Shown here piece after piece: positions 1 to 63,608 of a stretch of 64,000 nucleotides of DNA. The translations under genes and the position numbers were made by a program. The notes beneath the pieces are model-generated. The model saw nothing but the letters and a program-made list of their open reading frames with translations, was not told the origin of the DNA and did not search any database. Every line of letters starts with the position of its first letter. Position 1 is the stretch's first letter. Origin of the DNA: Planctomycetota bacterium (GTDB taxonomy: Bacteria > Planctomycetota > UBA8108 > UBA1146); assembly GCA_014240375.1 (NCBI GenBank), contig JAAZXB010000001.1:116110-180109 (forward strand). Reading direction: 5' to 3'.

Positions 1-108
1 GTCCCGACTGCTGTCCCGACTGCTGTCCCGACTGCTGTCCCGACTGCTGTCCCGACTGCTGTCCCGATTGCTGTCCCGACTGCTGTCCCGACTGCTGACC
101 GGATTGCT
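1..108. repeat. 12-bp tandem array (gtcccgactgct)n, eight units plus a degenerate ninth
   Basis: Units at 1-12, 13-24 and so on to 96 are identical except for one C-to-T change in unit six. A ninth copy at 97-108 is degenerate. The array continues past the left edge. On the minus strand it encodes in-frame QQSG repeats of the coiled-coil protein. The near-identity of the copies points to recent expansion or homogenisation. Confidence 0.97.
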
Positions 109-1393
109 GGCCGGAGGAACCGGCCAGTTGTTGGGCTCGACCCAGCGCACGGGATGCGTCTTGCAGATCCCCGGCAGCGGAGCCCGCCTGCGCATCCCCA
201 TCTTCGGCACCACCATTCGAGGCTTCTTGTTGCCTCCAGCGATCGAGTTCAGCGCGCAACTGGGCGAGACGCTGGGCGAGAGATGCGATCCGCTGGCCGT
301 CGCGATCCGCGGCATCCCGAAGAGCTTCACTGGCCTGTGAGAGCGCCTGCTCCTGTTCCTCTCGTGAGCCGGCCGCCGCAGAGACCGACTGCGGCTCGCC
401 AGTCGTCGCAGCGGCAGCCTCATTCGCCGCCTCAGCAGATCTTGCCAGCGCTTCACTGGCAAGACTCAGCCCCTCCAATGCAGCGGCGGCATTTTCATCG
501 CCACGCTGGGCATCATCTGCAGTTTCTCGGCGGAGAGCATCGACACTCTGTTGAACCCGTGCAGTGGCCTTCGCCTGCTCTCGAGCACGCGCCGCCAAGC
601 GCTGGCGTGCGGCGGTCTCTTCTCGATTGCCATCGGTACCCAGCGCTGCGGTCTCCACGGCATCCTGCCGCGCATCCTGCTCGATCCGGGCGACCCTGAG
701 GGCCACCGCCTCGATGCCTTGCTGGCGGCGAGCTTCACGGGAGATGTCATCTGCGATGTCATGGGCCTCTTTTGAGAACTCCATCGCATCACTGGTAGAG
801 TCCTGGTCACGGGTAGAGTCCTCGGCTCCATCGAGTTGCCCTTGTTCTGCGGCGATCTCGTCGATGGCACTGCGAACATCCTCGAGGTCCTGAGCATCTT
901 GCTGGGCGGTTTCGGCCGCCGCAGTACGATCCCGCAATGACCGCTGAGCAGCCGCAATCTCGCCAATCTGCTGCAATCGTTGGGCCACATCCTCGAGGCG
1001 TTGATCGACCTCTTCCCGATTGACCTCACGCTTCTCCAGGATTGCGAGTACCAGTTCCAGATTTTCTCTGACCTTTCGGACTGTTTCGAGGGCCACGATG
1101 TAATCTTCCGATTCGAGCGCTTCCGTGACAGACTTCATGTCATCCTCGAGCAGAGCCCTGACGATTCGTTCTCGCGCAGTTCTCAAGCGGCTCGAGTCTT
1201 CTGGTTGCTCCCCCTCCAGTCGCTGCGCCAACGATTCCATCTGAACCTGCAAGGATCGGAGATATTCTCGAGACTCTTCCTGCAGCCTGGCCAGACGATT
1301 TCCAGTCTGTGCTGATAGATCTATCGGGATCAAGACCGTCAAGAGGAGGAGGAGCAAGAGCCACCGGCTGTCTCGCTTCTTTCGCATCATCAT
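1..1393 (-). CDS. Secreted/membrane-anchored coiled-coil protein with C-terminal QQSG repeats (partial, 3' end beyond window)
   Basis: Absent from the ORF track because no stop lies in the window. I translated it from the ATG at 1393, which overlaps the TGA of the upstream gene by 4 bp. The frame stays open to base 2. The N-terminus reads MMMRKKRDSRW followed by a Leu-rich hydrophobic core and an Ala-Gln end, which is a signal peptide or anchor. Then come some 400 residues of Glu/Ala/Gln/Arg-rich heptad-like helix, almost certainly coiled coil. The visible end is (QQSG) repeated at least eight times, encoded by a perfect 12-bp array. It is the last visible gene of the MoxR/Bat operon and follows a DUF4175-like coiled-coil protein. 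Such Gln-rich proteins are common in planctomycete versions of this cluster, but their function is unknown. Structural or scaffold role is inference only. Confidence 0.85.
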   Translation of the reverse strand, partial: MMMRKKRDSRWLLLLLLLTVLIPIDLSAQTGNRLARLQEESREYLRSLQVQMESLAQRLEGEQPEDSSRLRTARERIVRALLEDDMKSVTEALESEDYIVALETVRKVRENLELVLAILEKREVNREEVDQRLEDVAQRLQQIGEIAAAQRSLRDRTAAAETAQQDAQDLEDVRSAIDEIAAEQGQLDGAEDSTRDQDSTSDAMEFSKEAHDIADDISREARRQQGIEAVALRVARIEQDARQDAVETAALGTDGNREETAARQRLAARAREQAKATARVQQSVDALRRETADDAQRGDENAAAALEGLSLASEALARSAEAANEAAAATTGEPQSVSAAAGSREEQEQALSQASEALRDAADRDGQRIASLAQRLAQLRAELDRWRQQEASNGGAEDGDAQAGSAAGDLQDASRALGRAQQLAGSSGQQSGQQSGQQSGQQSGQQSGQQSGQQSGQQSGQQSG

Positions 1394-3576
1394 CGCTGAT
1401 CTCCTTCTGACTTGTCCCCGCCGAGGGACTCCCTGACCTTGTCCTCGATTCGATTCTCGAGGTCTTTTTCCGCTCGGAGCAACTCCTCAAGTTTGCGAAT
1501 CACAGTGCGTAGATCTCCCCACTCTTGCAAATCAGACACCACATCCGAGAGTCCTCGCTCCACACTCCGAACCGCATCCAGTGCTTGATCGGCATCCTCG
1601 ATCGTGGCTTCCCCTGAGGCGGCCTGATTCGCCAATTGATCCAACGCTTGCCGAGCCGGGGTGATCTTATCCGTCCCCAACGCATCGATTCGCTCCTTCA
1701 ACTCCTGGATCCATGCCAGTTCCTGAGCATCACTCATGCGATTCCGGATCAGTCTCTCGGAGATGGTCGCCAGCCTCTCGGCGGCATCTTCCACGCGGGT
1801 CGAGACTCTGTCCTGGCCATTACGGGCATGACGGACGATCGGCGCCTGGGTACTGGCTTCTTCACCAGAATTCAACGCATCTCGCACGTCTTCCAGTTCC
1901 CTCCGTACCTCGCGCTGAACCGTAAAGGTCTCCTCGAGCCTCTCCTTGAGCAGAGTCAGTTCATCCTGGGTGACCCTCTCCAGTTCCTCCTCGCTGAGAA
2001 CACTGAGGATCCAGGTCCGACTGGACCCGATCTGCTCGAGGGCATCGAGGGCGGTGGCGTGGTACTGAACCCGCTGACCGGCACTCAATCCCCACGTGGA
2101 AAGATCGATCTGAAGTGCTTGGGATTCCTCCGTCGAAGTTCCTTCCACTCTACCGATCTGATCGAGTGCAATCTCCTTCGGCTCCCACTCTCCCTCCAGT
2201 TCTGGAGAGAAGATCAGTTTTCCTGAATTGACGCCGTAGTCGTCGAGGACTCGAATCGACAGATCCAGCAGCGCTCTCGGGGTGATCTCGATGTTCTGGC
2301 CCGGCTCCTCGATGGTCACCTCCGGAGAACGATCGGGGATCACCGCGATGCGCCAGACGATTGGATTGTCGTTGGCAAAACCTTGCTCTGAATCGAGCGA
2401 AATCCACCATCGTCCATTCTCCTCTGCGACGAACGATCCCCGAAGAGTCCGACCACCCTCGATGGCGACCTCTGATTCGATGAACAGCTCCTCATCTCCG
2501 CTGGGACGACCTTCGACACGAACGGCTCGAGTCACATCGATGCTGGTATGTGCAAGGAACTCCACGCGAGTACCGGTCGGAGCCTTGACATGGCCGCTCC
2601 TGACCGAAGCGGCTTCACTGTTCGATGAGAGTCCCGTGTACTCAGGAAATTCGTAGCGGAGTTCAATCTCCTCGACACGTGGCCTGGCGCGGACCCGGAT
2701 CGAGTACAATCGGCCAGTGTAATCGCCGCACTCGACTCGAAACTCGATGTCTCGCTGGAGATTCTGGAAGACATGGCGGAATCCAGCTTCTCCCTTTCGA
2801 TCCAGCGTGAGTTCTTCGCGCAACTCTCTCCGCCCATCCTGGGCCGGAAATCGCACCGCGAGATACGCCCGGGCGTTCCCCCCTCGGTTCTTCTGGATGT
2901 CGACCACCAGCGAGGTGCCCTTGGCGACCACCAGATCCGTATTGACGGGGCTCAAGACTTCCAGTTCGTAAGACCTCGGCCACAGATCCCCTTGCAGCAG
3001 GATGTTGCGAGCGAAGAAGGTCCGTGCCAGTTCGGGACGCAATAAACTGCCAGAAACTGCGGGCACCGCCAGGATCAGGAGTAATCCCATGGCCGCCCAC
3101 ATTCGACTCCATGAGAGAAGCCTCCCCGGCCGCAACTCGTGCATTCGCTGCTCTGCCAGTGTGACCGTCTGTTCGATCAGTGCCGGATTGTAAAGATGGC
3201 TCCTGGGATTGTTGGGGTCGGTCAGTTGGACAGCAGTGATGAGAGCGTCCTCCAGCTCACCAGAGGCCGTCTCGACCATCGAGGCCAACTGATCCTCGGT
3301 CGCGGGTGTACGAGCAGCCAGCAGGATGGCCCGGAAGGTGATCAGCAACAGGATCACCACCGCAATGATTTGTGCCACCCGGAGAGCCCACGGAAGATCG
3401 GCAACCCAGTCGAGCAGGAACATCGCAATCACTGCCGAGATCACCACCACCAACCAGCGGAAGCCCCCGGTCATGGCACGCATCCAGCGCCTGCGTGTCC
3501 GCAATTCCCGAATTCTTTGCAGCGCCAGTTGTGGCCTCTGAAGGGGAGTGGGTTGATTCGATTCGATCACGCTCAC
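1390..3576 (-). CDS. DUF4175-like membrane protein with C-terminal coiled coil
   Basis: 728 aa. Two closely spaced hydrophobic segments lie near residues 35-85 (WLVVVISAVIAMFLL and IIAVVILLLI), with a third near residue 160-180 (MGLLLILAVPAVSG). A large extracytoplasmic beta-rich region follows, and a charged helical C-terminus (about 540-728) rich in Glu, Arg and Ala. The layout of N-terminal helices plus a long periplasmic helical tail resembles DUF4175/TIGR02302 proteins. That is a layout comparison, not a search result. It overlaps both neighbours by 4 bp, so translation is probably coupled. The position in a MoxR/DUF58/BatA operon suggests a role in envelope protein complex assembly or stress, which is inference. 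ATG start supported by the ATGA overlap. Confidence 0.85.
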   Translation of the reverse strand: MSVIESNQPTPLQRPQLALQRIRELRTRRRWMRAMTGGFRWLVVVISAVIAMFLLDWVADLPWALRVAQIIAVVILLLITFRAILLAARTPATEDQLASMVETASGELEDALITAVQLTDPNNPRSHLYNPALIEQTVTLAEQRMHELRPGRLLSWSRMWAAMGLLLILAVPAVSGSLLRPELARTFFARNILLQGDLWPRSYELEVLSPVNTDLVVAKGTSLVVDIQKNRGGNARAYLAVRFPAQDGRRELREELTLDRKGEAGFRHVFQNLQRDIEFRVECGDYTGRLYSIRVRARPRVEEIELRYEFPEYTGLSSNSEAASVRSGHVKAPTGTRVEFLAHTSIDVTRAVRVEGRPSGDEELFIESEVAIEGGRTLRGSFVAEENGRWWISLDSEQGFANDNPIVWRIAVIPDRSPEVTIEEPGQNIEITPRALLDLSIRVLDDYGVNSGKLIFSPELEGEWEPKEIALDQIGRVEGTSTEESQALQIDLSTWGLSAGQRVQYHATALDALEQIGSSRTWILSVLSEEELERVTQDELTLLKERLEETFTVQREVRRELEDVRDALNSGEEASTQAPIVRHARNGQDRVSTRVEDAAERLATISERLIRNRMSDAQELAWIQELKERIDALGTDKITPARQALDQLANQAASGEATIEDADQALDAVRSVERGLSDVVSDLQEWGDLRTVIRKLEELLRAEKDLENRIEDKVRESLGGDKSEGDQR

Positions 3577-4673
3577 CTCTCGAAGATGGGCAAGTACTGG
3601 AATGGAATCTCCAGGATGATGCAGGCCATCGCCGTCGCATAGTTCGGCCCCACCAGATCCTGCCAGGATCCATCGGGGTTTTGCAACGACAGGATGTCAG
3701 ACCATGTGTTCTTGTGCCACAAGGTCCAGTACTCCCCGCCTCGCTGAAATGCCGCCTGTGTGGCGTAGTACATCCCGTAGTAGTAATCAAATGTTTTGAG
3801 AGCCTCATACTTGCGTGGGCGATGGCGGGTGAGATAGGCCAGGCCACGATCGATGACCCGATCCTCGTAGATCCCGGCACCATAGAGAGCGGTAACGCCT
3901 GCTGCGGTGAGGGGGAAGGTGGTCCTCGATCGCTGAACCCGACCAGTGGGTCCGACCTCGTGTTGATACATGAAGCCGCCACTCTCAATATTCGAGGACT
4001 CTCGAACATAGGAGATCGCCGAATCGACCACATCCTTCGGGACATGAATCCCGGCATTTCGGGCCGCACGAAGGGCCATCACCTGGCACACCGTGATGCT
4101 CATGTCCGCATCGTCTGCCCCGGGTTGATAGCGCCACCCACCTGTTTCATTCTGCGCCTGAACGATCAAGCTCACCGAACTCTTGAGCTTCTCCTTGACC
4201 TTTTCCATGCCGGTCATGCCATATACCTCGGCGAGAAAAAGTGTCGCAAATGCGTGGCTGTACATCCGCGATTCATCGGTCGAGATGAAGCCGTTGGTCT
4301 GGACCGTCCTGAGGATGAAGTCGAGACCCTTCTCCACCTGCTCGCCGTACTTGCCCCGACCTGGCAGGCTCCCCTGGGCCAGAAATGCCAGGCACGCCAG
4401 CGAAGTCACTCCGACATGCTTGCCCAGACGGCCTCGATATTCGTAATGAACCTTTCGACCGATCTTGTCGGTCCAGGATCCATCGGCATCCTGGGTCTGC
4501 TTGAGGAACTCCAGTCCGCGCTCGGAGGCGAGGCGTGCTCGCTCCTGCAATTTCAAGTCGATCACCCGAGCAGAATCGTCATCGCCCAGTGATCCTGATG
4601 GAATTGCTGTTGAAGGAATCATCCACAGTAGAATCATCAGCAGTAGTACTGGACGGGTTCCAGTTTGCATCAC
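3573..4673 (-). CDS. Prenyltransferase/squalene-oxidase-repeat secreted protein
   Basis: 366 aa with an N-terminal signal peptide (hydrophobic core VLLLMILLWMI). The rest is alpha-helical repeats of the terpenoid-cyclase/protein-prenyltransferase toroid type. Repeat cores include GLEFLKQTQDADGSW, GGWRYQPGADDADMS and ILSLQNPDGSWQD, with the typical (Q)xxDGSW signature. No DXDDTA-type squalene-hopene cyclase catalytic motif is visible, so it is unlikely to be a cyclase. It is better read as a secreted alpha-alpha toroid, comparable in fold to alpha-2-macroglobulin complement-like domains. It is embedded in the MoxR/Bat operon with 4-bp overlaps on both sides, as in other planctomycete clusters. 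Molecular role unknown. Confidence 0.88.
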   Translation of the reverse strand: MMQTGTRPVLLLMILLWMIPSTAIPSGSLGDDDSARVIDLKLQERARLASERGLEFLKQTQDADGSWTDKIGRKVHYEYRGRLGKHVGVTSLACLAFLAQGSLPGRGKYGEQVEKGLDFILRTVQTNGFISTDESRMYSHAFATLFLAEVYGMTGMEKVKEKLKSSVSLIVQAQNETGGWRYQPGADDADMSITVCQVMALRAARNAGIHVPKDVVDSAISYVRESSNIESGGFMYQHEVGPTGRVQRSRTTFPLTAAGVTALYGAGIYEDRVIDRGLAYLTRHRPRKYEALKTFDYYYGMYYATQAAFQRGGEYWTLWHKNTWSDILSLQNPDGSWQDLVGPNYATAMACIILEIPFQYLPIFER

Positions 4674-12310: not shown

Positions 12311-13430
12311 GCGCCGCCGTTTCTTCGAGTAATTTGCGAATGATGTCGTCGGAACTGACTCCCTCTGCTTCTGCTGCGAAGTTGGTCACGATCCGGTGAC
12401 GAAGAACAGGCAAGGCGACCCTGCGGATGTCATCACCGGTCACATGGGGACGGCCATTGAGGACCGCATTCGCCTTCGCGCCCAGAACCAGGTACTGGCC
12501 TGCGCGAGGTCCCGCTCCCCACTCGACATGACGGCGGACGAAATCGGGAGTTTCTTCCGTTCGAACACGGGTCGCCCGAGTCAATCTCAAGGCGTAGCGA
12601 ATCAGATCATCCGCAATCGGGACGCCTCGAACCAACGCCTGCAACTCGAGGATTCGTTTTCCGTCCAGCACCGACTCCACCTCGGCCTCATTTCCTCCTG
12701 TGGTGCGCTGCATGATTTCCAGTTCCTCATCCGAATTGGGATAATCGACGCTGATGTTGAACATGAATCGGTCCAGTTGCGCTTCGGGAAGGGGGTAGGT
12801 CCCTTCCTGCTCGATGGGGTTCTGGGTCGCAAGTACGAAAAAGGGTGGAGTGAGTGGATGGCGGTTACCGCCCACCGTGACTTGCTTCTCCTGCATCGCC
12901 TCGAGAAGTGCAGCCTGAGTCTTGGGTGGTGTCCGGTTGATTTCGTCTGCCAGTACAACGTTGGCAAAAATCGGTCCTGGCACGAAACGGAACACCCGGT
13001 CTCCCGTTTCAGAATCGGACTGGATCACCTCGGTGCCAGTGATATCACTCGGCATCAGATCCGGAGTGAACTGGATCCTGTTGAAGGTGAGAGAGAGTGC
13101 CCGAGCCAGTGTGCTGATGAGAAGTGTCTTTGCGAGACCCGGAACCCCGACCAGCAAACAGTGGCCGCCAGAGAGTAATGACAGCAGCAACTGATCGATG
13201 ACCTCTTCCTGGCCGACGATGACCTTTCCCAGTTGTCGACGCAATTCATCGACTGCCTGCTGAATCTGAGCGATGGTGTCTTCACTCACCTCCGCGTCTT
13301 CACTCACCTCCGCGTCTTCATCCGCCTCTGCGGCTTCATCCGAGGACGACGGGTCGCTGGGAAAGGCCAACTCGCCAGAATCTTCTCCCGGCTCGCTGCC
13401 CTCATCTGGACGATCATCTGCGCTGGTCAT
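12297..13430 (-). CDS. MoxR-family AAA+ ATPase
   Basis: 377 aa. I chose the ATG at 13430, which has a GAGGA Shine-Dalgarno about 6 nt upstream. The ORF track runs 27 codons further without such support. After an acidic low-complexity N-terminus (about residues 1-60) comes a complete MoxR core. Walker A is GVPGLAKT, Walker B is [20 protein letters not shown], sensor 1 is [21 protein letters not shown], and a C-terminal lid follows. MoxR ATPases are chaperone-like remodelers that work with VWA proteins, three of which follow in this operon. The acidic N-terminal tail contains an in-frame 18-bp duplication (EDAEVS twice) and is longer than in typical MoxR proteins. First gene of the operon. Confidence 0.95.
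13279..13332. repeat. 18-bp tandem repeat inside moxR
   Basis: tcttcactcacctccgcg occurs at 13279-13296 and 13297-13314, with a third diverged copy at 13315-13332. It encodes an EDAEVS-type acidic repeat in the MoxR N-terminal tail. The unit length is a multiple of three, so the frame is kept. Confidence 0.93.
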
Positions 13431-13500
13431 GTAGTTTCCTCGTTCCTGGGTCTGGCCAAACGGCGGCTCTTCTTGCCGGGGCAATACCTGCAAGATGGTT

Positions 13501-18914: not shown

Positions 18915-20245
18915 GGCTGCGGATCCGCTGGACCCCTTCTCACCAGTTCGTCTATTCCGTCTCCGTCGAGATCCGCCAGTCCCTCCTCAACGACACCCAC
19001 GATCTCCTGATCCAGTTCTCCGTCTCCATCTTCATCGCCACCACCACCGACCAGTGGGAACCACTTCTCCCCCGCAGAAAGTGCCCTCAATTGCCGCGTC
19101 TGGCCAAGAAAAACCACCGCATGGTAGCCCCCCTGCGGCCGGTTCGGCTGTTGAGCCAGGACTCGATCGCCATTGCTCACGCACCCCACCGCCAGCGGGA
19201 GATTTCCCCCGAGCAGACCGGGGAACGGTCCCGTCGTTCTTTCCAGTACGGCTCCCGATCCAAAATCCAGTACCAGCAGCCCTGACCCATCGGTGGGGCG
19301 ACCCACTCCGAGCAACAGCATCTCATCCTTGCCATCGTCATCGATATCGAACAGGTGCACCCGCACCCGTCCCGCCGGAGCCACCCCACGGATGGTCGGA
19401 GCAGCCCGGTGAGCCTTCCCTTGTGGATCGACGCAACAGATCTCCAGATCATCCGAGGCCGCTGCTGCAGCAGACCCATACAGGCTGTGGATCCCGTCGA
19501 GATCGAGATCTCCAGGGGTTGCACGCGCTTCAGGATGAACCGGGTGCATCACCGAACTCTTCAGTGGTACGTGACCGAGCCCGAGGATGTGACCGGCTTC
19601 ATGCACGATCACTTTTTCCAGCTGCGGCTCGATGCGACGGATCGCCCTCAATCCTCGCGCTGCTGGAGTGGGTTCCGAGGTGGGTTTCGAGGTGGGTTTC
19701 CCGAGTGTCCAGTCGAGATTGGTGTTGAGATGAATCGACCACGGAGTGTCATCTCCGGACTCCGGAGCTGCCGCGATGTGGGCGAGCATCTCCGCCGAGA
19801 TCCCGAAGGAAACACAGGATCGACCATGGTTTTTACCCCTCCAGCCGATCGTCAGGGTGGCCGTCTCCCCTTGCTGGGCTCTGCGAAAGGAACAGGCTCC
19901 TGGAACGTTCCATCTTGCCAGTGCCGACTCGATCACCTGTTCAGCCTTGTGAAGATCGAAGGGGCAATTCGTCGGGTCCATGCGCCAGAGGATTCCATCG
20001 GAACCGACCATCCGGTGCAGGATGGTGAATCGAAACTGGAACGCACCGCCACTGTATCGGTACTCTTCCTGCTGTGATGGCTGCACAAGGTGACAGGCGC
20101 ACAGCAACAGAGGTAGCAGTAGTAGAGAAGAGCGCAGTCCGCGAACCGAAGGGGAGTTCCACGGGGAGTTCCACGGGGAGTTCCACCGAGTGTTCGCCAA
20201 CAGCTGTGACCATCGCTGTCGTATCCACGAGTGCACCAAGTTCAC
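18911..20245 (-). CDS. Matrixin-like zinc metallopeptidase, probable lipoprotein
   Basis: 444 aa, GTG start preceded by GAGGGGAG. After a 40-residue polar N-terminus with three NSPW repeats comes a hydrophobic core, LLLLPLLLCAC, with a plausible lipobox Cys. Residues about 60-235 form a metzincin domain: the zinc motif HEAGHILGLGH is followed by SSVMHP, the Met-turn. The C-terminal part has VCBS/FG-GAP-like acidic repeats (FDIDDDGKDEMLLL, DLDGDGIDELV). This suggests a cell-surface protease or self-processing surface protein. Two in-frame 12-bp repeat arrays lie in the gene. The long region before the signal is odd, and a start misassignment is possible. Confidence 0.8.
   Translation of the reverse strand: MNLVHSWIRQRWSQLLANTRWNSPWNSPWNSPSVRGLRSSLLLLPLLLCACHLVQPSQQEEYRYSGGAFQFRFTILHRMVGSDGILWRMDPTNCPFDLHKAEQVIESALARWNVPGACSFRRAQQGETATLTIGWRGKNHGRSCVSFGISAEMLAHIAAAPESGDDTPWSIHLNTNLDWTLGKPTSKPTSEPTPAARGLRAIRRIEPQLEKVIVHEAGHILGLGHVPLKSSVMHPVHPEARATPGDLDLDGIHSLYGSAAAAASDDLEICCVDPQGKAHRAAPTIRGVAPAGRVRVHLFDIDDDGKDEMLLLGVGRPTDGSGLLVLDFGSGAVLERTTGPFPGLLGGNLPLAVGCVSNGDRVLAQQPNRPQGGYHAVVFLGQTRQLRALSAGEKWFPLVGGGGDEDGDGELDQEIVGVVEEGLADLDGDGIDELVRRGPADPQP
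19677..19700. repeat. 12-bp tandem duplication inside the matrixin-like gene
   Basis: gaggtgggtttc occurs twice in succession (19677-19688 and 19689-19700), with a diverged copy just before. On the minus strand it encodes KPTSKPTSEPT, a linker within the protease domain region. Confidence 0.9.
20151..20186. repeat. 12-bp tandem triplication near the 5' end of the matrixin-like gene
   Basis: ggggagttccac occurs three times without mismatch. It encodes NSPW-type repeats just before the signal-peptide-like hydrophobic core. Confidence 0.95.
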
Positions 20246-23403: not shown

Positions 23404-24246
23404 CTAATCGACAGGATTCCCCTGCAGGATGAAGGTAAGGGCCAGAATAGCGCTGAGTACTGCGACGATCGGTCGCAGCAGTCGCTCTCCTCCTTTCAGG
23501 GCAAATTTCCCTCCCAGATACGCCCCGAGTCCGTAGGAAGGGATCAGCACAATCGCCACGGCAAGTTGAAACTTGCCGTGGCTCAGGTACAAGAGGCCCG
23601 ATGCGGCGGACATCGCCACCACCCACCACACCTTCCAGCGCACTGCTTCGACCACCGAAAGTCGCATCGAAGTGGTCAACAACAAGACGATCAAAGCTCC
23701 GACTCCGGCTCCGATGAACCCACCGTAAAAGCCACAGATCAGGCAGCCGATGTAGAATTTGATTCCGGGAGTGGCGGCCAGTGGATCGGCCAGTGGATCG
23801 GTCAGTGGATCGGTCAGTGGTGGATCTGGCCGCGGCAACAGGAATGCCCCGACCGCCACCAACATCAACCCACCCATCACCTGGCGAAACAGACTCTTGT
23901 CGAGGTGCTCGATCTCGACGGCTGCCAGCGCCCCGAGGATCGCAGCCCCTCCCACCAGCATCAGAGGACGCCAGCCGATGGTGGGCGATTCCTGCGATTT
24001 CGAGCCGCTGGAGCGTTCCAACCCACGATTCATCGTCCACCCGGCGACCAGCGCCTGAAAGGCCACGCAGATCCTGTTGGTGCCATTGGCCACCAGCGGG
24101 TCGATCCCCAGCGACACCAGTAGCGGTAGTACCAGCAGCGTCCCCCCACCCACCAGGGTATTGAGGGTTCCAGCCACGACTCCGACCACTGCGATGATCG
24201 CCCAGTTCAATGAGGCCCAGTCCAGTATCGCCCAGTCCAATTCCAA
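23404..24246 (-). CDS. TSUP (TauE/SafE) family membrane permease
   Basis: About 280 aa. I prefer the TTG at 24246 because AAGGGGGG lies 7 nt upstream. The track start (another TTG) is 16 codons earlier. The protein has about seven to eight hydrophobic helices. The N-terminal TSUP repeat is GTLNTLVGGGTLLVLPLLVSLG and the second is CGFYGGFIGAGVGALIVLLL, with the Gly-rich motif in both halves. The family exports sulfite, sulfonates or related organic anions, but the substrate here cannot be told. The central loop carries a (LTDP)n repeat, and the N-terminus a 5-aa repeat (LDWAI-type), both from in-frame tandem duplications. Divergent from the 2-oxoacid oxidoreductase genes. Confidence 0.88.
   Translation of the reverse strand: MELDWAILDWASLNWAIIAVVGVVAGTLNTLVGGGTLLVLPLLVSLGIDPLVANGTNRICVAFQALVAGWTMNRGLERSSGSKSQESPTIGWRPLMLVGGAAILGALAAVEIEHLDKSLFRQVMGGLMLVAVGAFLLPRPDPPLTDPLTDPLADPLAATPGIKFYIGCLICGFYGGFIGAGVGALIVLLLTTSMRLSVVEAVRWKVWWVVAMSAASGLLYLSHGKFQLAVAIVLIPSYGLGAYLGGKFALKGGERLLRPIVAVLSAILALTFILQGNPVD
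23779..23820. repeat. 12-bp tandem array in the TSUP permease gene
   Basis: cagtggatcggc/t occurs three times followed by half a unit. It encodes LTDPLTDPLADPLA in a loop between transmembrane helices. Confidence 0.94.
24200..24244. repeat. 15-bp tandem repeat at the start of the TSUP permease gene
   Basis: Three diverged 15-bp units starting gcccagtycaa or gcccagtccag encode LDWAI-LDWAS-LNWAI. They lie just before the first transmembrane helix. More diverged, thus older, than the 12-bp arrays. Confidence 0.75.
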
Positions 24247-32187: not shown

Positions 32188-32256
32188 GGTCCTCCAGGCC
32201 GGTACGGTGGGCCGGCTGAGCCCAGCATCGCTTGCCCGAAGCGGCGAAGCAAGCCG

Positions 32257-32284
32257 GCCTTGTCGAGCCCGCCTTGTCGAGCCC
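32257..32284. repeat. 14-bp tandem duplication between the ROK kinase and DUF962 genes
   Basis: gccttgtcgagccc occurs twice back to back in the 152-bp divergent intergenic region. The unit is not a multiple of three, unlike the arrays inside genes. Confidence 0.93.
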
Positions 32285-36725: not shown

Positions 36726-36757
36726 CTGCATCCATCTGCTACTGCATCCATCTGCTG
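36726..36757. repeat. 16-bp tandem duplication, intergenic
   Basis: ctgcatccatctgcta/g occurs twice in succession in the rpmH downstream region. The unit is not divisible by three. Confidence 0.93.
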
Positions 36758-36990
36758 CCGTGTCGATCTGCGAAGTCGATCTCTCGATGCGACAGTTCGC
36801 ACATCTCGCACACCCCACCTCCCGTGACCAAATGCCAGCCGTGAAATCAGCGGTGTAGATCCACACTTCGAGGACGAGTTTCAATTGCGGAGGCGACCGG
36901 GAATCATCACGGGTGACCGTTGAGTTGCCCCTGCTCGTGGATGGCTCGCCCGCATCTCATCGCCTCAAAGCGGCAGCATCAGGAAGCAGC

Positions 36991-37016
36991 CTGAGGACGC
37001 TGCCTGAGGACGCTGC
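36991..37016. repeat. 13-bp tandem duplication, intergenic
   Basis: ctgaggacgctgc occurs twice without mismatch just downstream of the MinD-like gene's stop. A similar cagcctgagg context precedes it. Confidence 0.93.
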
Positions 37017-43925: not shown

Positions 43926-45720
43926 GACCACAGGTGATGGCATCGTCGGTCGGATCCTCGCCGCAGGCAGCCGACGGAGCAGGAAGTGGAATGCCAGAAA
44001 CGAAAAGATAGTCGAGGATCTTGATCCCATCGGTGATGTTGACGGATCCATCATCGTTGGCATCCGCCGCATCCATGCAGTCGATCTGAGCACTCCCAGG
44101 TATGAAGAGCAGCGCCAGCAGCTGAATCGCATCCGCCAGGTTCGTACTGGAACTGGCATCGACATCGCCTCTACGGAAACTTCCAGATCCTTCGGGCCCA
44201 AGGGCTCCCATGTCCGGCGCGGAACCATCGGGATCGACGGGAAGAGCTGGATTTCCTCCGTTGATACATGGAGAACCAGGCTCAAGCGCCAGGTTCCCTG
44301 CACTCACATCGACGAATAACGGATCTTCATCGATGCAATCAAAGGAGTAGAGAGAGGAGGTGGCGAGACCTTCAATGCAGCTGAAAAAGGCGTTGGTGGA
44401 TCCCGGCAAGACCTGAACCGGCTGAGGACCCCCTCCAACGATGATGCAGGAATCGATGGTCAGGATGTTGGGAATGCTGTTGTTGACCGTGATGTTGGCG
44501 ACCAATCCAGCGGCAGGGGGGCCAAAAGTGCAGCGCTCGAGAAGGACCGATGCAACGTTGAGACTGACACCTAAATTGGCTCCACTGGCCGTGGCGGAAT
44601 TGCCGTAGAAGACGCAGAAGAACAATTCTTGAGTTTCGGTTCCGTCTCCGGAATCGATCAACACTCCGCCGCCATTGGCCCCTCCCACATTGTCATGGAT
44701 CCGGCAATGATCGAGAGTGACTCGAGAAAAATCGGACACCACCAATCCACCACCTGTGACTGCGGTGACATTCTGGGCGATTTCACAATCGAGGAAGGTG
44801 GCATCGGAGTCCTGATACAACCAGACTCCTCCGGCAAGAAGATCAGTGTTGTTCTCGTTCAATAGACACGATTGAAGCTGCAAGTTACTACTCTCGCAGT
44901 AGATCGCTCCCGCAACGATGTCCGCGTGGTTTTGCAGGATCAAGCAATCGACCAGGGAAATTCCTACGGAGGACCCGGTGACGGCAATCCCACCGCCAGC
45001 ATCGATCGCTTGATTCTGAGATACCTCGACCTGATCCAGTTCGATGGTAGTGACATTCCCGCCGTCGATGGCGATTCCTGCTCCGATGGTCGCCTGGTTC
45101 TCCATCACGATGCAATTGGAGATCCTGGGTGACGAATCGATGATGTAAATCCCACCACCCTTCCTCACTCCGTTGATCAGCACTCCGCCACCACCGCGAA
45201 TCGTGAACCCATCGAGATGTGCCAGTGCGCTCTCCCCTGAAGTAAATCGAACCACTGGATTATCGAGAGTACCGGAGATGATGGTGACCTCGGGGCCCGC
45301 TGCTGACCGGATCAAGATCTGCTTCCCTGCAAAATCGATCGCCTCGTTCCAGCTGCCGGGAGAGACCACGATCTCATCTCCATCGACCGCCAGGGCGATG
45401 GCCGCATTGATGGTGGACGCATCGAGGGGCACCTGGATCTCCGCCCCCTGTAACCACGAGCCACCCTGCGTCTGGCTGTAGAGACCCAGTGAATCGCTCC
45501 ACACCGGAAGGATCCAGACGATGAAGATCAGCCACAATTTTGGGATGATGGTGGGGTTTGGGATGATGATGGGGTTTGGGATGATGATGGGGTTTGGGAT
45601 GATGGTGGAGAGGAGAGTTCGCCTCTCCGAATCGATGCAGATCACTCCAGACTGCCTTCCACGGGTATTGGTCGAATAATTGGGCTCGATCAATGGTTCT
45701 GATAATCTCGATAGACTCAT
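43912..45720 (-). CDS. Right-handed beta-helix surface protein with C-terminal dockerin-like module
   Basis: About 602 aa. The start is uncertain: ATG 45720 is used, while the track start is a GTG at 45771 with no Shine-Dalgarno. A repeat-rich N-terminus (PNPIII units) precedes a hydrophobic core, LWLIFIVWILPVWSDSL, which is the likely signal. Residues about 100-480 are beta-helix coils of the pectate-lyase/parallel beta-helix type (HLDGFTIRGGGGVLING, ISNCIVMENQATIGAGIAID, LDHCRIHDNVGGANGGG). The C-terminus has the dockerin-like pair GDVDASSSTNLADAIQLLAL and NDDGSVNITDGIKILDYLF, ending ICP. Such proteins bind or cut polysaccharides; no catalytic residues were assigned. Confidence 0.85.
   Translation of the reverse strand: MSLSRLSEPLIEPNYSTNTRGRQSGVICIDSERRTLLSTIIPNPIIIPNPIIIPNPTIIPKLWLIFIVWILPVWSDSLGLYSQTQGGSWLQGAEIQVPLDASTINAAIALAVDGDEIVVSPGSWNEAIDFAGKQILIRSAAGPEVTIISGTLDNPVVRFTSGESALAHLDGFTIRGGGGVLINGVRKGGGIYIIDSSPRISNCIVMENQATIGAGIAIDGGNVTTIELDQVEVSQNQAIDAGGGIAVTGSSVGISLVDCLILQNHADIVAGAIYCESSNLQLQSCLLNENNTDLLAGGVWLYQDSDATFLDCEIAQNVTAVTGGGLVVSDFSRVTLDHCRIHDNVGGANGGGVLIDSGDGTETQELFFCVFYGNSATASGANLGVSLNVASVLLERCTFGPPAAGLVANITVNNSIPNILTIDSCIIVGGGPQPVQVLPGSTNAFFSCIEGLATSSLYSFDCIDEDPLFVDVSAGNLALEPGSPCINGGNPALPVDPDGSAPDMGALGPEGSGSFRRGDVDASSSTNLADAIQLLALLFIPGSAQIDCMDAADANDDGSVNITDGIKILDYLFVSGIPLPAPSAACGEDPTDDAITCGLICP
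45539..45610. repeat. 18-bp tandem array, four units, in the beta-helix gene
   Basis: tttgggatgatgrtggrg occurs at 45539, 45557, 45575 and 45593 with one or two substitutions per copy. It encodes PNPIII-type repeats just before the signal-like hydrophobic core. Confidence 0.95.
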
Positions 45721-46800: not shown

Positions 46801-47585
46801 AATCCCCCGCCATCGAAATTCACGACTTGACCGTCTCGTACCGTGAGAAGCCGGTACTCTGGGACATCGACGCAACCATCCCCGAAGGATCGCTCTGTGC
46901 CATCGTGGGCCCCAATGGAGCCGGGAAGAGCACCCTTCTCTCCGCCATCCTCGGCACCATTCACCCCGCCAGCGGTTGGCTGAAAATCTTCGATCACGAG
47001 GTGGGGAAGTCACAGGAACTGATCGGATTCGTTCCACAACGCGAGAGTGTCGACTGGGATTTCCCGGTCGACGTGCTCGATGTGGTGCTGATGGGCACTT
47101 ATTCCAAGTTGGGTTGGTTTCGAAGACCTGGAAAAGCACAACGCGACCGGGCGATGGAGTGCCTGGAACAGGTGGGAATGGCCGACCTCAATAAGCGCCA
47201 GGTGGGCGAACTGTCTGGAGGCCAACAGCAACGCGTGTTCATTGCAAGATCACTGGCACAGGATGCTCGATTGATCCTCATGGATGAGCCCTTTGCAGGA
47301 GTCGATGCGGCCACCGAAGAGGCGATTCGACTGGTCTTGTTGGATCTCAAGAAAAAGGGCCGAACCGTAGTTCTCGTACATCATGATCTGCAGACGATTG
47401 AAAACTTCTTCGACCATGTGTTGCTGCTCAACCTACGGCTGGTCGCAGCCGGCCCCACAGCAGAGACCTTTACCCGAGAGAACCTGCTGCGAACCTATGG
47501 TGGTCGCCTCACTCTTCTCGATGAGGCAGCGGAAGCGGTCCGACGCATCCGAACCGGAAGGTCTCGAACCGGCAGGGATCGATGA
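46797..47585 (+). CDS. Metal ABC transporter ATP-binding protein
   Basis: 262 aa, GTG start at 46797 overlapping the upstream TGA, with GGAGG just before; the track ORF begins 17 codons earlier. Walker A GPNGAGKSTL, Q-loop GFVPQRESVDWDFPV (typical of Mn/Zn importers), signature LSGGQQQR, Walker B LILMDEPFAGVD and switch His VLVHHDL. It energises metal import at the cytoplasmic face. It overlaps the first permease by 4 bp. Confidence 0.96.
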   Translation: MKSPAIEIHDLTVSYREKPVLWDIDATIPEGSLCAIVGPNGAGKSTLLSAILGTIHPASGWLKIFDHEVGKSQELIGFVPQRESVDWDFPVDVLDVVLMGTYSKLGWFRRPGKAQRDRAMECLEQVGMADLNKRQVGELSGGQQQRVFIARSLAQDARLILMDEPFAGVDAATEEAIRLVLLDLKKKGRTVVLVHHDLQTIENFFDHVLLLNLRLVAAGPTAETFTRENLLRTYGGRLTLLDEAAEAVRRIRTGRSRTGRDR

Positions 47586-51353: not shown

Positions 51354-51742
51354 GTAGCATCTTCAGTTCGATCATCGCCGGAAAAATTCCCTGCCACCGG
51401 GTATGGGAAGACGACGATCACCTTGCGTTCCTCGACATCCGACCGGTTCAGCCAGGCCATTGCCTGGTCATTCCCAAGCGAGAAGTCAGTTACATCTTCG
51501 ACATGGCTCCGCATGAATATGCTGCGCTATGGGCAGCAGTTCGAGTGGTAGAGAAGAAGATCCGTAACGCCACCGGATGTTCACGAGTCGTGGTGTCGGT
51601 GATTGGCTGGGAGGTTCCCCACGTCCATGTCCATCTGATCCCCACTTCTGACATCTCCGACTTTCAGTTTCCTGGACCCTGCGACCTCAAAGCACCCCCA
51701 CTCGAGGAACTGGCCTCAAGAATTCAACAGGCACAGGAGTGA
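51350..51742 (+). CDS. HIT-family nucleotide-binding protein
   Basis: 130 aa from ATG 51350 in a 4-bp overlap with the thioesterase; the track ORF is 6 codons longer. The HIT signature HVHVHLIP lies near the C-terminus, with SSIIAGKIPCHRVWEDDDHL at the N-terminus as in Hint/PKCI-type proteins. These are purine nucleoside phosphoramidases or AMP-lysine hydrolases. Length is normal for the family. It overlaps the following flavoprotein gene by 4 bp. Confidence 0.93.
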   Translation: MSSIFSSIIAGKIPCHRVWEDDDHLAFLDIRPVQPGHCLVIPKREVSYIFDMAPHEYAALWAAVRVVEKKIRNATGCSRVVVSVIGWEVPHVHVHLIPTSDISDFQFPGPCDLKAPPLEELASRIQQAQE

Positions 51743-53031: not shown

Positions 53032-53053
53032 CGAAACTCGCTCGTAAAACTGC

Positions 53054-55945: not shown

Positions 55946-56159
55946 GGAAATCTCCTCGAAGAGCATCTGAATGAAGTTTCATCGATTCAGAAGCGGGGAC
56001 TCACTGTTCTGGATGCTGGACTCACCAGGGTCAGAACCGAGGTCATTCTAATCCAAGCCACCACACTCAGCGAGTGGCTGGGACCGAAGAGGCTGAGGGT
56101 CTGGAGGAGGGAACAGACACCCCTCCTGGGCTGTCGATCGGAAAGGCCCCACTCTCGAC

Positions 56160-58985: not shown

Positions 58986-59236
58986 ATCCACTGAAGTAAT
59001 CCAGACTAACTAAACAGATAGAGCCTTACCGATTGGTAATGCAAGCAAGGTCCTATAACGAACATGGCCGTTCGCTGACCGATAACAATAAAATCTAGCG
59101 TCCTGCAATCGCAAAGCCCAAAATAGCCGGGCTTCCTTATCTATATGCAGAACCACTCGACTCCTAAATCTAACCTCCTTGTAATGAGGAGAGTAAGGGA
59201 CACCCCCGAACATGTCAAACTATTCATTACGTTATT
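58986..59236. other. AT-rich intergenic region (about 250 bp)
   Basis: Noticeably more AT-rich than its surroundings. It contains a short inverted repeat (aagccc / gggctt, near 59115-59135) and probably the promoter of the downstream minus-strand peptidase. No gene or RNA recognised. Confidence 0.5.
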
Positions 59237-59632
59237 TTATTCCACTATTTTCGGCAGCACAACTCCCTTGTTAATCGACACCATCGCCCCCCGATCCACC
59301 CCTAACCAGCCCCAGGAGAGCAATAGCCCCGATCCACCCAGCGGTGTCACCCACCGAAACAGGGAAGGGCCTCCTCCTGCAAGGAGCAGCAGGGAACCAC
59401 AAAAAAGCACAGTCGCCAATAGCATCAATCGTCCCTGTCCGACTCTTCCGATGGCACCACAGATCCAGATTCCAATGGCGTGCCAGAACAGGAATCTGCA
59501 CCCGATCTCCCACTGTCCCAGCGCAGCAGGATCCGCAGTCTCCTGCAGACGATGAGTTCCCCAAGCACTACACCCAACAGCAATCGCCGCCAGAAAATAT
59601 GCAACTCTGATCAATCCAGATGAACTCAGCAC
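59237..59632 (-). CDS. DUF423-family small membrane protein
   Basis: About 131 aa from the GTG at 59632, which has an AGGGGGG just upstream and overlaps the methyltransferase stop; the track ATG lies 12 codons earlier. Four hydrophobic helices: VAYFLAAIAVGCSAWGTHRL (the typical DUF423 GA(F/W)G.H pattern), FLFWHAIGIWICGAIGR, LMLLATVLFCGSLLLLAGG and a last one near LLLSWGWLG. The family is conserved, of unknown function. It is the last gene of the SRPBCC-methyltransferase operon. Confidence 0.82.
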   Translation of the reverse strand: MLSSSGLIRVAYFLAAIAVGCSAWGTHRLQETADPAALGQWEIGCRFLFWHAIGIWICGAIGRVGQGRLMLLATVLFCGSLLLLAGGGPSLFRWVTPLGGSGLLLSWGWLGVDRGAMVSINKGVVLPKIVE

Positions 59633-60798
59633 AGCCCCCCCTGCTCTCGTTCGATGGCAAAGAGCCATTCATGCACTTCATCTTCTGTTCGCCCTTCGGC
59701 TGGCCGAAACTGCCTGCTGGCTCCTCCTCGGTCACTCCTGAATCTCCGATATGGAATCTCGTGCAACATCTGATCCCTGTCACCTGCGGGTGACCAGGAC
59801 TGGAGCATCTGAAGAATTTCCGTTCTCGAGAGGATCCCTTCTTCACTGTAAGAAAGAACGATTCCCCTCGCCTGTGCTCGTTGAATGATGCTTTGCATCG
59901 CATCTCTACAGTCCGTTCCTCGACGGCTACATAGTGGAGAAGACACATCTTTCCACGGTAACAATCCGGTTTTTCCATACAGTTGGAGTTCAAGGGAATC
60001 GTCAGATTCCTCCATCGGCAACCGTGAAATCACTTCTGGAAGATGGTAGTTGGCTCCATATTGTCGGTGATTATAAGGCGGATCGAGATACAGAAGATCG
60101 CACTCCACCTGCTCGATCCACTCCCCGGCCTCACAACGATTGGCCTGTCCGATCGGCCCCTCGACGGTGGCAGGAATTCGAAGTTTCAGATCATTCAGTG
60201 AGTTCTGTTGCCAACTCTTGAGATAGGCACCGTAGGTTCCAGAGATGTTGGCCACTCGATCTGCGGCATCGATGACACTGACAATCAACAGCCACATCTC
60301 ATTCTCCTGCAAACGATCATCGATTCGCCACTGTCGGATCTGATCGATGATGGCATCCAGACGAGCGGCATTGACCGGAGTCAGATATCCCCTCTCCGCC
60401 GTCCCTGCTGGAGAAAACTGCCGTACCAGAATTCCCTCTCTGGCAGGCAATTCCTGCTCCAGATACCGAATCAATTTCAGAAAGGGCATCCATGCATCGG
60501 GATCAGCGGGACTCGCATCGTGGACCCTCTTGGCTTCCATCGGTTCCATCGATTCCCAATGATCCTGAACTCCACTGAATGACGGCGGGCCCGGGCATTC
60601 CAGATAGACCTTCTGGAACGCCAAAGAACAGTGCATCAGATCGGTGGAAATCACACGGTAGCCACGAGCCCGGAAAAAACGGCCGACAGACCCGCTACCT
60701 GCAAACAGATCGCAGACGGTGCCACCTCGAAAACCGGCCCGCTTGGCTGCGAGCAGGATCTCATCGAGCAATGGAGTCTTGTTTCCAAGCCAGCGCAA
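59626..60798 (-). CDS. D12-class DNA adenine methyltransferase (first of a pair)
   Basis: 390 aa, TTG start with GAGGAG upstream, beginning 1 bp after the TAG of the second methyltransferase. The N-terminus LRWLGNKTPLLDEIL matches the motif X region (YxGxK). SAM motif I is CDLFAGSGSVGRFF and catalytic motif IV is LLYLDPPYNHRQYG. A 150-residue insertion between them probably recognises the target. The family methylates N6 of adenine in DNA. The adjacent paralogous enzyme could methylate the other strand of an asymmetric site. No endonuclease-like gene is near. Confidence 0.88.
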   Translation of the reverse strand: MRWLGNKTPLLDEILLAAKRAGFRGGTVCDLFAGSGSVGRFFRARGYRVISTDLMHCSLAFQKVYLECPGPPSFSGVQDHWESMEPMEAKRVHDASPADPDAWMPFLKLIRYLEQELPAREGILVRQFSPAGTAERGYLTPVNAARLDAIIDQIRQWRIDDRLQENEMWLLIVSVIDAADRVANISGTYGAYLKSWQQNSLNDLKLRIPATVEGPIGQANRCEAGEWIEQVECDLLYLDPPYNHRQYGANYHLPEVISRLPMEESDDSLELQLYGKTGLLPWKDVSSPLCSRRGTDCRDAMQSIIQRAQARGIVLSYSEEGILSRTEILQMLQSWSPAGDRDQMLHEIPYRRFRSDRGGASRQFRPAEGRTEDEVHEWLFAIEREQGGLC

Positions 60799-60799
60799 T

Positions 60800-62200
60800 C
60801 TACTCCTCGCAAAGCAGGAGTAATTCTCGAACCGATCGGTTGGAATCCCCCTGCCCCGAGTGCATCAATAGTTTCTCGCGGATCTCAACCTGCCCGAAGT
60901 ACTCCAGCAGTAACTCTCGAAACTTCCGTGCCGGGTTCTGTTCCCCCTGCTTGGCCCAGCGACCGGTCAGAAGTCCAGTATCGGTGGAGTACGAGATCAG
61001 CAGCCTAGAACTCCGATCCTTGCACGCTTGAGCCACTCCTCGAAACGCCTCCTCAACCCGAACGCTGCTGCAGAAATCGGAGCGGTACCTGATCTCCTGC
61101 TTTGGATATCGACCCTTGGTCAGAGAACCTCCCCGGCTCTCCAGTTCTGGATAGTCGTAGGCAACCAGGGTTTCCAGAACATGGTAAAAGCGCGAGTAGT
61201 TGTCTGCGGTATAGGGCGGATCCAGATAGACCAGATCCACTTCCTCGTCATCGAGTGGACTTCCTGGAGCGAGCAATCGCTGAACATCGCTACAGAAGAC
61301 CCGGTTCCCTGCGAGCCTTGGATGGTGGGACCACTCTCTCAGGATCGCTTCGAGCGCCAGTTCGAATTGCTGATCGATGTCGATTATCCGGCGCTTGGCC
61401 ACCGCTACAAGTTCAGGATCTCGGGCGATCGATCGAGGCTGAGCAAAGTGACTGGTCCCAGACGTACTTACCGAAACCGCATGCAGCAGAGCTGCGAGGT
61501 ATATTGCCCGCTTCCTCTCCCGAAAAGGATCCGAGGAGGGGATCGCCTCGATGGCATGGCGGATCGAATCGATCCGAATCGACTGCCTCAGTCCAAAGTA
61601 GACATGAGACCAGTACGCCGTGCAGAGCATCGCCGGAGAGCCCCCTGAGGATTTCCGTCTCTGGTCGAGCAAGTGTTCCAGACGACTCGCAAGAGGCTGA
61701 TGAACTCCTCCATCATCTTCATCGGATGAGATTCCGCTGGCGTCATGGGGAATCGGAGCCTGGGCCACAAAGGAGCGATAACGCTCCATGGCACCGCTAT
61801 CGCTCGCATTTCCCGAACCCTCTTTCAGCACCTGGTCGAGCAATGAATCTTCCAGGTCCAGGGCTCTCGGCGCCAGGTTGGTGAGCCACTGAGCATTCTC
61901 CTCTGTCGCACTACCCAGATCCTGGAGATGGTCCAACTGGTCGAGGTAGTTTCGCCACGACTCATCCCCCTCGAGGTGAGCGCTCGCCACGATGGAGGAG
62001 AAGTGTTGAACATCGTTGCTCAGGATCCGATAGGTCGGGGCGAACCAGCGAGATACGGCAGCGGTTCCAGCACACGCGTCGAGAAGAGTTTGACCTGGAT
62101 CCAACAGATCACGTACTGCACCGTCGAGGAATTCTTCGCACAGTCTCGTCTTGGCTCCCATGTACCAAAGGGTTCGTAATTCTGCCAGATCTCTGCTCAT
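60800..62200 (-). CDS. D12-class DNA adenine methyltransferase (second of a pair)
   Basis: 466 aa. Motif X LWYMGAKTRLCEEFL, a variant motif I LLDACAGTAAVSRWF (Phe of FAGSG replaced by Cys/Ala) and motif IV LVYLDPPYTADNYSRF. It is longer than its neighbour because of a bigger helical insertion (about residues 75-300), which includes an acidic low-complexity stretch SSDEDDGG. The variant motif I still keeps the Ala-Gly backbone, so activity is plausible. Overlaps the upstream SRPBCC gene by 4 bp. The target sequence cannot be read from the protein by eye. Confidence 0.87.
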   Translation of the reverse strand: MSRDLAELRTLWYMGAKTRLCEEFLDGAVRDLLDPGQTLLDACAGTAAVSRWFAPTYRILSNDVQHFSSIVASAHLEGDESWRNYLDQLDHLQDLGSATEENAQWLTNLAPRALDLEDSLLDQVLKEGSGNASDSGAMERYRSFVAQAPIPHDASGISSDEDDGGVHQPLASRLEHLLDQRRKSSGGSPAMLCTAYWSHVYFGLRQSIRIDSIRHAIEAIPSSDPFRERKRAIYLAALLHAVSVSTSGTSHFAQPRSIARDPELVAVAKRRIIDIDQQFELALEAILREWSHHPRLAGNRVFCSDVQRLLAPGSPLDDEEVDLVYLDPPYTADNYSRFYHVLETLVAYDYPELESRGGSLTKGRYPKQEIRYRSDFCSSVRVEEAFRGVAQACKDRSSRLLISYSTDTGLLTGRWAKQGEQNPARKFRELLLEYFGQVEIREKLLMHSGQGDSNRSVRELLLLCEE

Positions 62201-62763
62201 CCGTGACTACCCACCCGTTCGAGAATTTCGCGAAGACTGGCGAGCCAATCCCTCTGCAGATCGGCACAGCGCACAGCACGCCGTCCGATGATGAGAGAAG
62301 CCCAACCCTTCCATGATGACACGAATTCGACCAGAGAGCCGCCGCCGTCCGCCATGATCATCAAGCGCACCTGACTTCTGAAAGGCCCTCTCCCAGCATC
62401 CCAGGAGATGCCCCTCAGCGGGAGTGCGTTCGAGTCCTGAGAACCTGCAATGGAGATAACTTCGTCTTGCATGATCACACCGCCAGAGAGGGGTGCCCCC
62501 CCCCAGGGTTGCCAGATCAGTTCAAATCGTGATCCCGGTTTCCACGCCTCTCCCTGGATCCACCGAGCAGATTCCAGGCCCTGGCACCACCGAGGCCATT
62601 CCTCCAGCTTGGAAATCGACTCCCAAGTCTCCTTGGGCTCGATGTTGAACCAGGTGGTTTCACGAACCGAGAGTATACGCAAGGTTTCCGGAACCCCTCC
62701 CTGGGCCAGGTCGGACCCACTCCATGCTCGAAGAGCCCGCAGTGAGGCCCCAGCGTCCGGCAT
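62197..62763 (-). CDS. SRPBCC-fold protein
   Basis: 188 aa from ATG 62763 with AGGAG 8 nt upstream; the track start is 9 codons earlier. Residues about 30-185 look like an SRPBCC (START-like) domain: FNIEPKETWESISKLEEWPR, then WKPGSRFELIWQPWG and the C-terminal helix LIIGRRAVRCADLQRDWLAS. The family binds hydrophobic ligands. The first 30 residues are a polar extension. It overlaps the methyltransferase gene by 4 bp and would be the first gene of that operon. Whether it relates to DNA modification is unknown. Confidence 0.75.
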   Translation of the reverse strand: MPDAGASLRALRAWSGSDLAQGGVPETLRILSVRETTWFNIEPKETWESISKLEEWPRWCQGLESARWIQGEAWKPGSRFELIWQPWGGAPLSGGVIMQDEVISIAGSQDSNALPLRGISWDAGRGPFRSQVRLMIMADGGGSLVEFVSSWKGWASLIIGRRAVRCADLQRDWLASLREILERVGSHG

Positions 62764-62943
62764 TCTGTGTCTCCTGCTGGATGGGGTCAAGTCCAGCGAC
62801 TCAGATCAGATGACAAGTTGCATTTACCCTGTAATAATATGAATAGACTCAGGAATTGATGGGCAATCCCTCACGATCCCCATCGAGGCCTGATCTCTGC
62901 AGAGCAAATTACTTTGGATCCATTTGAAGGGCGTATTTGTTTC

Positions 62944-63411
62944 ATGGCTCGACCTCTTCTGCCATTGGTGCAGGCCATCATCCTTTGCGACAGAGTTTAC
63001 AAGGATGACGAGACACGCAAATGCGTGCTGGCTGGCACTTTCAACCAGATCCCCTTGGCGGAGTTCCCTTGTGAATATCAGCCCGCATCACTGTACCTCA
63101 ATCTGAGTGATTTCTCCGGTCACCACACCGTTTCATTCCGTTTCAAACGTCTCGCAGATGACTCCATTCTCGAAGAGAGTCCCGATTTCCCCCTCGAACA
63201 TTCAGATCGCAGAGAACACCACGAGTGCATCTTTGAACTGCCACCGATGGAATTCCCAGAACCGGGACGCTACACCTGGGAAGTGGTCTTCAACGGAACC
63301 GATGTGATCGGTACCGCCGACGTGGAAGCGGTATTGATGGAACTCAGCAGTCATGAAGAAGAGTTGAATGAGGGCCCGCAAAATGAGGGCCCGCAAGAGG
63401 AACAGAACTGA
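62944..63411 (+). CDS. Conserved small protein (possible DUF6941 member)
   Basis: 155 aa from ATG 62944 (MARPLLPLVQAIILCDRVYK); the track TTG is 10 codons earlier. The compact beta-rich sequence has LVQAIILCDRVY, VLAGTFNQIPLAEFP, then an Ig-like end GRYTWEVVFNGTDVIGTA. I recall similar small cytoplasmic proteins as DUF6941 in planctomycetes, but I cannot confirm this. The acidic C-terminal tail contains a duplicated NEGPQ from an in-frame 15-bp repeat. Divergent from the methyltransferase operon. Function unknown. Confidence 0.75.
   Translation: MARPLLPLVQAIILCDRVYKDDETRKCVLAGTFNQIPLAEFPCEYQPASLYLNLSDFSGHHTVSFRFKRLADDSILEESPDFPLEHSDRREHHECIFELPPMEFPEPGRYTWEVVFNGTDVIGTADVEAVLMELSSHEEELNEGPQNEGPQEEQN
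63367..63396. repeat. 15-bp tandem duplication at the 3' end of the small conserved gene
   Basis: aatgagggcccgcaa occurs twice without mismatch and encodes NEGPQNEGPQ. It keeps frame. Confidence 0.94.
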
Positions 63412-63420
63412 TCGTCTTTT

Positions 63421-63459
63421 CTGCAGCACATCACTGCAGTACATCACTGCAGTACATCT
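63421..63459. repeat. 13-bp tandem array, three units, intergenic
   Basis: ctgcagcacatca, ctgcagtacatca and ctgcagtacatct follow each other. They lie just past the stop of the small conserved gene. The unit is not divisible by three. Confidence 0.92.
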
Positions 63460-63504
63460 CCTCGACCACTCCCGTCGAGGGATCATGCCCGGGCCGATGA
63501 CCTC

Positions 63505-63608
63505 GTCACACCGTCACACCGTCACACCGTCACACTGTCACACCGTCACACCGTCACACCGTCACTCCGTCACTCCGTCGCTCCGTCGCTCCGTCACTCC
63601 GTCGCTCC
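63505..63608. repeat. 8-bp satellite array, 13 units
   Basis: gtcacacc, changing gradually to gtcactcc and gtcgctcc, is repeated with an exact 8-bp period. The gradient of variants shows stepwise local copying. The right end enters the last codons of the minus-strand HEAT-like gene and supplies its stop. The units are adjacent with no spacers, so this is not CRISPR. Confidence 0.95.

Follow-up and report, generated by a model that had tools for sequence, protein, structure and literature searches.

What fills a single stretch of DNA from an uncultured planctomycete with short tandem arrays, and does the reading frame govern the length of their units? The stretch, 64,000 nucleotides long and referred to here as the window, was given a first-pass annotation which counted 13 such arrays, held that their units are multiples of three inside genes and never between them, and attributed them to a lineage-wide, recent duplication process with purifying selection against frame-breaking copies, possibly due to loss of mismatch repair. 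It proposed comparing unit length modulo 3 between coding and non-coding DNA, and copy numbers between strains. Filtering of coding repeats by frame is textbook knowledge.

Materials and Methods

The window (G000:C32:116110-180109) belongs to a metagenome-assembled genome (MAG) of 3.39 Mb in 120 contigs, hereafter G000, and the public relatives of this lineage are uncultured Planctomycetota. The analysis covered 1.18 Mb of G000 (~35% of the genome). Sampled alongside it were four congeneric genomes (G001-G004), as well as relatives from the family and the class. Congener samples amounted to ~120-130 kb each for G001, G003 and G004 (~4% of each genome) and 288 kb for G002, the stretches being selected partly because they are syntenic with the window. 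At the nucleotide level G004 is ~94% identical to the window, G003 ~90%, G001 81-85% and G002, in most matches, 68-78%. All sequences are consensus MAG sequences.

Genes were called in one pipeline for every genome, by a home-made, self-trained codon-usage caller, and arrays were called by Tandem Repeats Finder (TRF; score at least 50, units 7-60 bp). Exact duplications were tallied once per locus. The null model combined codon-shuffled genes with Markov-resampled spacers.

Results

All 13 arrays, with the unit lengths first assigned to them, were recovered by TRF in the places originally given or only a few bases away (Table 1). The coding status of the array at 20151-20186 is uncertain: a GTG far upstream (20245) and the start called for the gene (20086) enclose it, and a lipoprotein-like signal sequence follows shortly after. 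Several of the coding arrays are located in low-complexity tails or linkers. The array at 1-109 adjoins an assembly gap of 100 N (G000:C32:116010-116109); the G003 orthologue of its gene carries ~132 bp of related 12-bp repeats.

Table 1. Tandem arrays of the window and the state of the same loci in congeneric genomes
Position	Strand	Unit (bp)	Copies	Context	Congeners
1..109	-	12	9.1 (true number may differ, next to gap)	coding, QSGQ repeats; gene ends beyond the window	
13278..13338	-	18	3.4	AAA ATPase of MoxR type, acidic linker at N-terminus	single copy in G004 and G003
19668..19700	-	12	2.8	matrixin-like (Peptidase_M10) gene	3 copies in G004; single in G003 and G001
20151..20186	-	12	3.0, perfect	N-terminal extension or 5′ leader of matrixin-like (Peptidase_M10) gene	one copy in G004; ~one copy or less in G003
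23775..23820	-	12	3.8	coding	3 copies in G004; 1-2 in G003
24197..24241	-	15	3	coding	2 copies in G004; 3 in G003; 1 in G001
32252..32284	.	14	2.4	intergenic, upstream of ROK-family gene	3.4 copies in G004; 6.4 in G003; 1 in G001
36726..36756	.	16	1.9	intergenic	no array in G004 or G003
36973..37016	.	13	2.8	intergenic	spacer filled by other arrays in G003 and G004
45539..45608	-	18	3.9	near N-terminus of beta-helix protein, before hydrophobic segment	~one copy or less in G003 and G004
63367..63396	+	15	perfect duplication	DUF6941 protein, C-terminal tail	single in G003 and G004, without junction microhomology
63421..63458	.	13	2.9	intergenic	~1.3 copies in G004; 4.3 in G003
63504..63603	.	8	12.5	intergenic	~2 copies in G003 and G004

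TRF reports two more weak arrays in the window, at 4616 and 47550. The latter (47550-47582) is a 15-bp near-repeat kept in all five congeneric genomes, and thus old rather than a fresh duplication. The 8-bp array at 63504-63603 represents a minor short-unit class, intergenic 8-bp duplications being in excess as well (7 against 1.25 expected). Elsewhere in the genome (G000:C43, C76 and C120), in-frame repeats in coding DNA whose units are long (171, 441, 483 and 486 bp) form a further, separate class.

The abundance of short arrays and their range of sizes can be read directly from the sequences. In the first 784 kb of G000, 114 arrays scoring at least 50 were observed, against ~5 expected under the null model, whilst a 50-kb control from E. 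coli K-12 gave no arrays. Exact intergenic duplications in G000 peak sharply at 13-15 bp, with counts of 3, 4, 16, 11, 15, 7, 4 and 2 for units of 11, 12, 13, 14, 15, 16, 17 and 18 bp respectively; the G000 sample holds none of 10 or of 19-24 bp, and longer units occur once each at 25, 31 and 48 bp. The null expectation for exact duplications is about 0 above 10 bp. The distribution of unit sizes is narrow and unimodal (mean 14.3, SD 1.6 bp), and exact duplications with units of 5-7 bp exceed the null model slightly, if at all.

The frame rule is strict within genes, and there is no such rule between them. By TRF, 94 of 98 coding units in the 1.18 Mb are divisible by three, as are 52 of the 55 exact coding duplications with units of 11-18 bp, whereas among non-coding or gene-border arrays the share is 28 of 86 (binomial P=1.0 against 1/3; Fisher P=3e-21 for coding versus non-coding). 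The genic part of the original claim is thereby upheld, as is the difference modulo 3, but the rule must be confined to genes, because the non-coding share equals the one third expected by chance; the lack of multiples of three between the genes of the window was small-sample luck. Exact coding loci of at least 11 bp have units of 12 (29 loci), 15 (19), 18 (4), 21 (2), 24 (1) and 11 bp (3) only. The three of 11 bp are the frame-breaking ones, two of them in one weak ORF call and the third close to a gene's 3′ end; most of the TRF exceptions are arrays with imperfect copies, belong to an ORF of weak support or, in one case, correspond to an array that is intergenic in G000.

The strength of this filter can be measured directly by taking intergenic DNA as the reference. 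Relative to it, coding DNA retains 27% of the in-frame and 0.8% of the frame-breaking duplications of 11-18 bp (acceptance 0.27 and 0.008), i.e., genes are depleted ~4-fold in the former and >100-fold in the latter, in agreement with the purifying selection initially proposed. Circularity of the gene caller, with frame-breaking arrays concealing broken genes, was ruled out by collapsing the arrays and recalling the genes, after which only 2 of 56 frame-breaking non-coding arrays fell inside a gene, both at gene edges. Among the spacers, array density is 1398/Mb in convergent, 576/Mb in co-directional and 253/Mb in divergent (promoter-bearing) ones.

The excess of arrays appears to mark a subclade made of G000, G001, G003 and G004, as judged from nucleotide identity. 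Intergenic density reaches 753/Mb in G000 and 628/Mb in G001, G003 and G004 pooled, against 43/Mb in G002 and 171/Mb in other family members. G002 has 1 intergenic array in 23 kb where G000 has 86 in 114 kb (P=2.6e-6); it also falls below the pooled congeners (P=3.5e-4), and G000 is in excess over the whole set of family members sampled outside the subclade, of which G002 is one (P=1e-9). In the exoVII/mutL block common to both genomes, 80 kb of G000 contain 4 non-coding arrays and G002 none. The coding-array density of other class members, partly very GC-rich, is 110/Mb, not below the 92/Mb of G000; in G017, the one class member tested, about half of the coding arrays correspond to chance.

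Turnover between relatives is fast. At the orthologous loci of species 81-95% identical, the unit of most G000 arrays occurs once or in a different number of copies, as the array at 32252 illustrates with its four states in four genomes, and 11 of the 17 loci alignable in G004 are single-copy or absent there. A raw indel survey from pairwise alignments, noisy as it is, also contains tandem indels of 12, 14 and 15 bp. Together with the excess over G002 and over the family outside the subclade, the fast turnover bears out the lineage-wide and recent character attributed to the process. No account of such a lineage emerged from our literature search.

The units themselves seem to have nothing in common. 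The identity of each unit to its nearest neighbor is the same as for shuffled units, and a shared motif and mobile or family-forming repeats are ruled out, the units being unrelated to each other. Origin from shorter microsatellites or from hairpin-prone units is excluded too, since there is neither a sub-period nor a hairpin bias. At the junctions, a direct repeat of at least 2 bp flanks 24 of the 30 clean intergenic arrays (80%) in the subclade, against 16% by chance (P=3e-14). Such a repeat flanks 9 of the 22 clean coding arrays, and 11 of the 22 have none; microhomology is also missing from the clearest polarised event (63367) and from several other polarised births. Part of the births thus need no microhomology, given that half of the clean coding arrays and the duplication at 63367 lack a flanking direct repeat.

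As to the repair and replication genes, each of the five genomes G000-G004 encodes MutS1, MutL, RecJ, ExoVII, Pol I and two Y-family polymerases. The MutS1 and MutL frames are full-length in G000, and G002 has both genes as well. The Pol I 5′ nuclease domain is found in the five genomes, G002 included, and the key residues of the 5′ nuclease and the 3′ exonuclease are intact in the array-rich G000, G001, G003 and G004. Ku is absent from all 16 genomes searched, and Cas1 occurs in G000 only, not in the other array-rich genomes. Differences in Ku, Cas1, MutS/MutL, RecJ, ExoVII, Y-family polymerases or Pol I were accordingly rejected as the cause, none of them tracking the array-rich genomes. The Cas1 domain of G000 (G000:C67:1448-2242) lies in an open frame of 809 aa, far longer than Cas1 alone and possibly a fusion; the other family genomes searched have none.

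Discussion

The explanation we favor, and regard as rather probable, is a raised rate of slippage-type duplication between direct repeats of 2-8 bp about 14 bp apart, followed by purifying selection. The subclade of G000, G001, G003 and G004 would acquire, judging from standing variation, new tandem duplications of 11-18 bp in essentially random and mutually unrelated sequences. A duplication may start when the nascent strand or a 5′ flap misaligns between the two direct repeats, converting ABA into ABABA. Slippage between the now-identical units could then add further copies, with the copy number growing and shrinking. Purifying selection purges nearly all frame-breaking copies in genes and about three quarters of the in-frame ones, and probably also many copies in promoter-bearing spacers. 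Several findings speak against this interpretation: births without microhomology are not accounted for, plain slippage predicts neither so narrow a size range nor a sharp upper limit, no tested repair gene differs between array-rich and array-poor genomes, and the coding-array density of other class members is no lower than that of G000.

A bolder reading is one in which an enzyme or replication defect specific to the subclade, with a molecular ruler of ~14 bp, seeds tandem duplications genome-wide and independently of sequence, by a bacterial process not described before. We consider this doubtful. More improbable still is a process in which the length ruler built into an enzyme spaces its staggered nicks by 11-18 bp, the filling and religation of the overhangs duplicating the stretch between them with no need for homology. 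The narrow, unimodal distribution of unit sizes is what such an enzyme would produce, and the same can be said of the births without microhomology, amongst them about half of the coding arrays. Casposon relatives of Cas1 leave target duplications of 14-15 bp. On the other hand, the direct repeats that flank most clean intergenic arrays argue against it, as do the absence of Ku from the 16 genomes searched and the confinement of Cas1 to G000.

Slightly less probable again is that duplications arise at an ordinary rate and that selection is relaxed in the subclade, allowing neutral arrays to build up. The concentration of arrays in convergent spacers, where selection is presumably weakest, is in line with this; nevertheless, the frame filter is very strong, arrays are born and lost rapidly, and the non-coding fraction is similar in G000 (9.7%) and G002 (8.1%) in spite of a 17-fold difference in intergenic array density.

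A classic mutator, in which the lineage would have lost mismatch repair, proofreading or the exonucleases that stabilise repeats, comes next in order and has little to recommend it. Such a mutator would give lineage-specific repeat instability, and a point-mutant MutS, DnaE or DnaQ is possible. Loss of mismatch repair, as first suggested, is however not supported, because MutS and MutL have been retained, along with Pol I, RecJ and ExoVII; the two Y-family polymerases are kept too, the active-site residues of Pol I are intact in the array-rich genomes, and exact duplications with units of 5-7 bp rise barely, if at all, above the null model. A classic mutator is thus largely refuted already. 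That the arrays are assembly artefacts of metagenome-assembled genomes is hardly credible: the array at 1-109 does adjoin a gap, but an artefact would be blind to reading frame, which the coding units are not, and separately assembled relatives have the same units in other copy numbers.

What goes beyond textbook knowledge in this lineage is the combination of intergenic arrays that become ~17-fold denser inside a single genus, a sharp unit size of 11-18 bp, units unrelated to each other, and births visible between species. It amounts to a natural experiment through which the control of short tandem duplication in bacteria could be traced, and provides a clean measure of the strength of selection on in-frame versus out-of-frame insertions.

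Amongst known systems, mismatch-repair mutators with microsatellite instability resemble G000 in having a lineage-specific instability of repeats, but G000 keeps its repair genes and shows no marked excess of 5-7 bp units. A closer likeness is found in yeast rad27 (FEN1) mutants, in which ABA becomes ABABA with B of 1-91 bp, a published example being an intergenic unit of 16 bp in 2-4 copies (PMC5677150). As in rad27, duplications in G000 are short and later variable in copy number, and most of the clean intergenic arrays of the subclade, but fewer than half of the clean coding ones, have short direct repeats at their flanks; yet rad27 is a eukaryotic case with a broader range of sizes, and G000 possesses the bacterial counterpart of the nuclease, the 5′ nuclease of Pol I, in intact form.

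The arrays also resemble the prokaryotic satellites, or bacterial minisatellites, described by Subirana and Messeguer (2019, PMC6749651), i.e., tandem units of 10-200 nt, multiples of three when coding and in many cases mutually unrelated; the units of G000 are likewise tandem, unrelated, and multiples of three in coding DNA. They differ from the transposed or family-forming satellites of the Leptospira and Chloroflexus type, where related units are dispersed genome-wide, and the intergenic ones, almost all of 11-18 bp, do not derive from 6-8-mers, unlike those of Burkholderia or Chloroflexus (PMC6749651). Counting only arrays of at least 4 copies with units of 10-200 nt, which places many arrays of 2-3 copies outside the definition, G000 has 58 in 1.18 Mb, or ~49/Mb. 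The bacterial maximum in the published table is 23/Mb, with 4/Mb for Rhodopirellula baltica (PMC6749651), so that, in a comparison that is rough since the finder differs, G000 stands above every tabulated bacterium and below the richest Methanosarcina.
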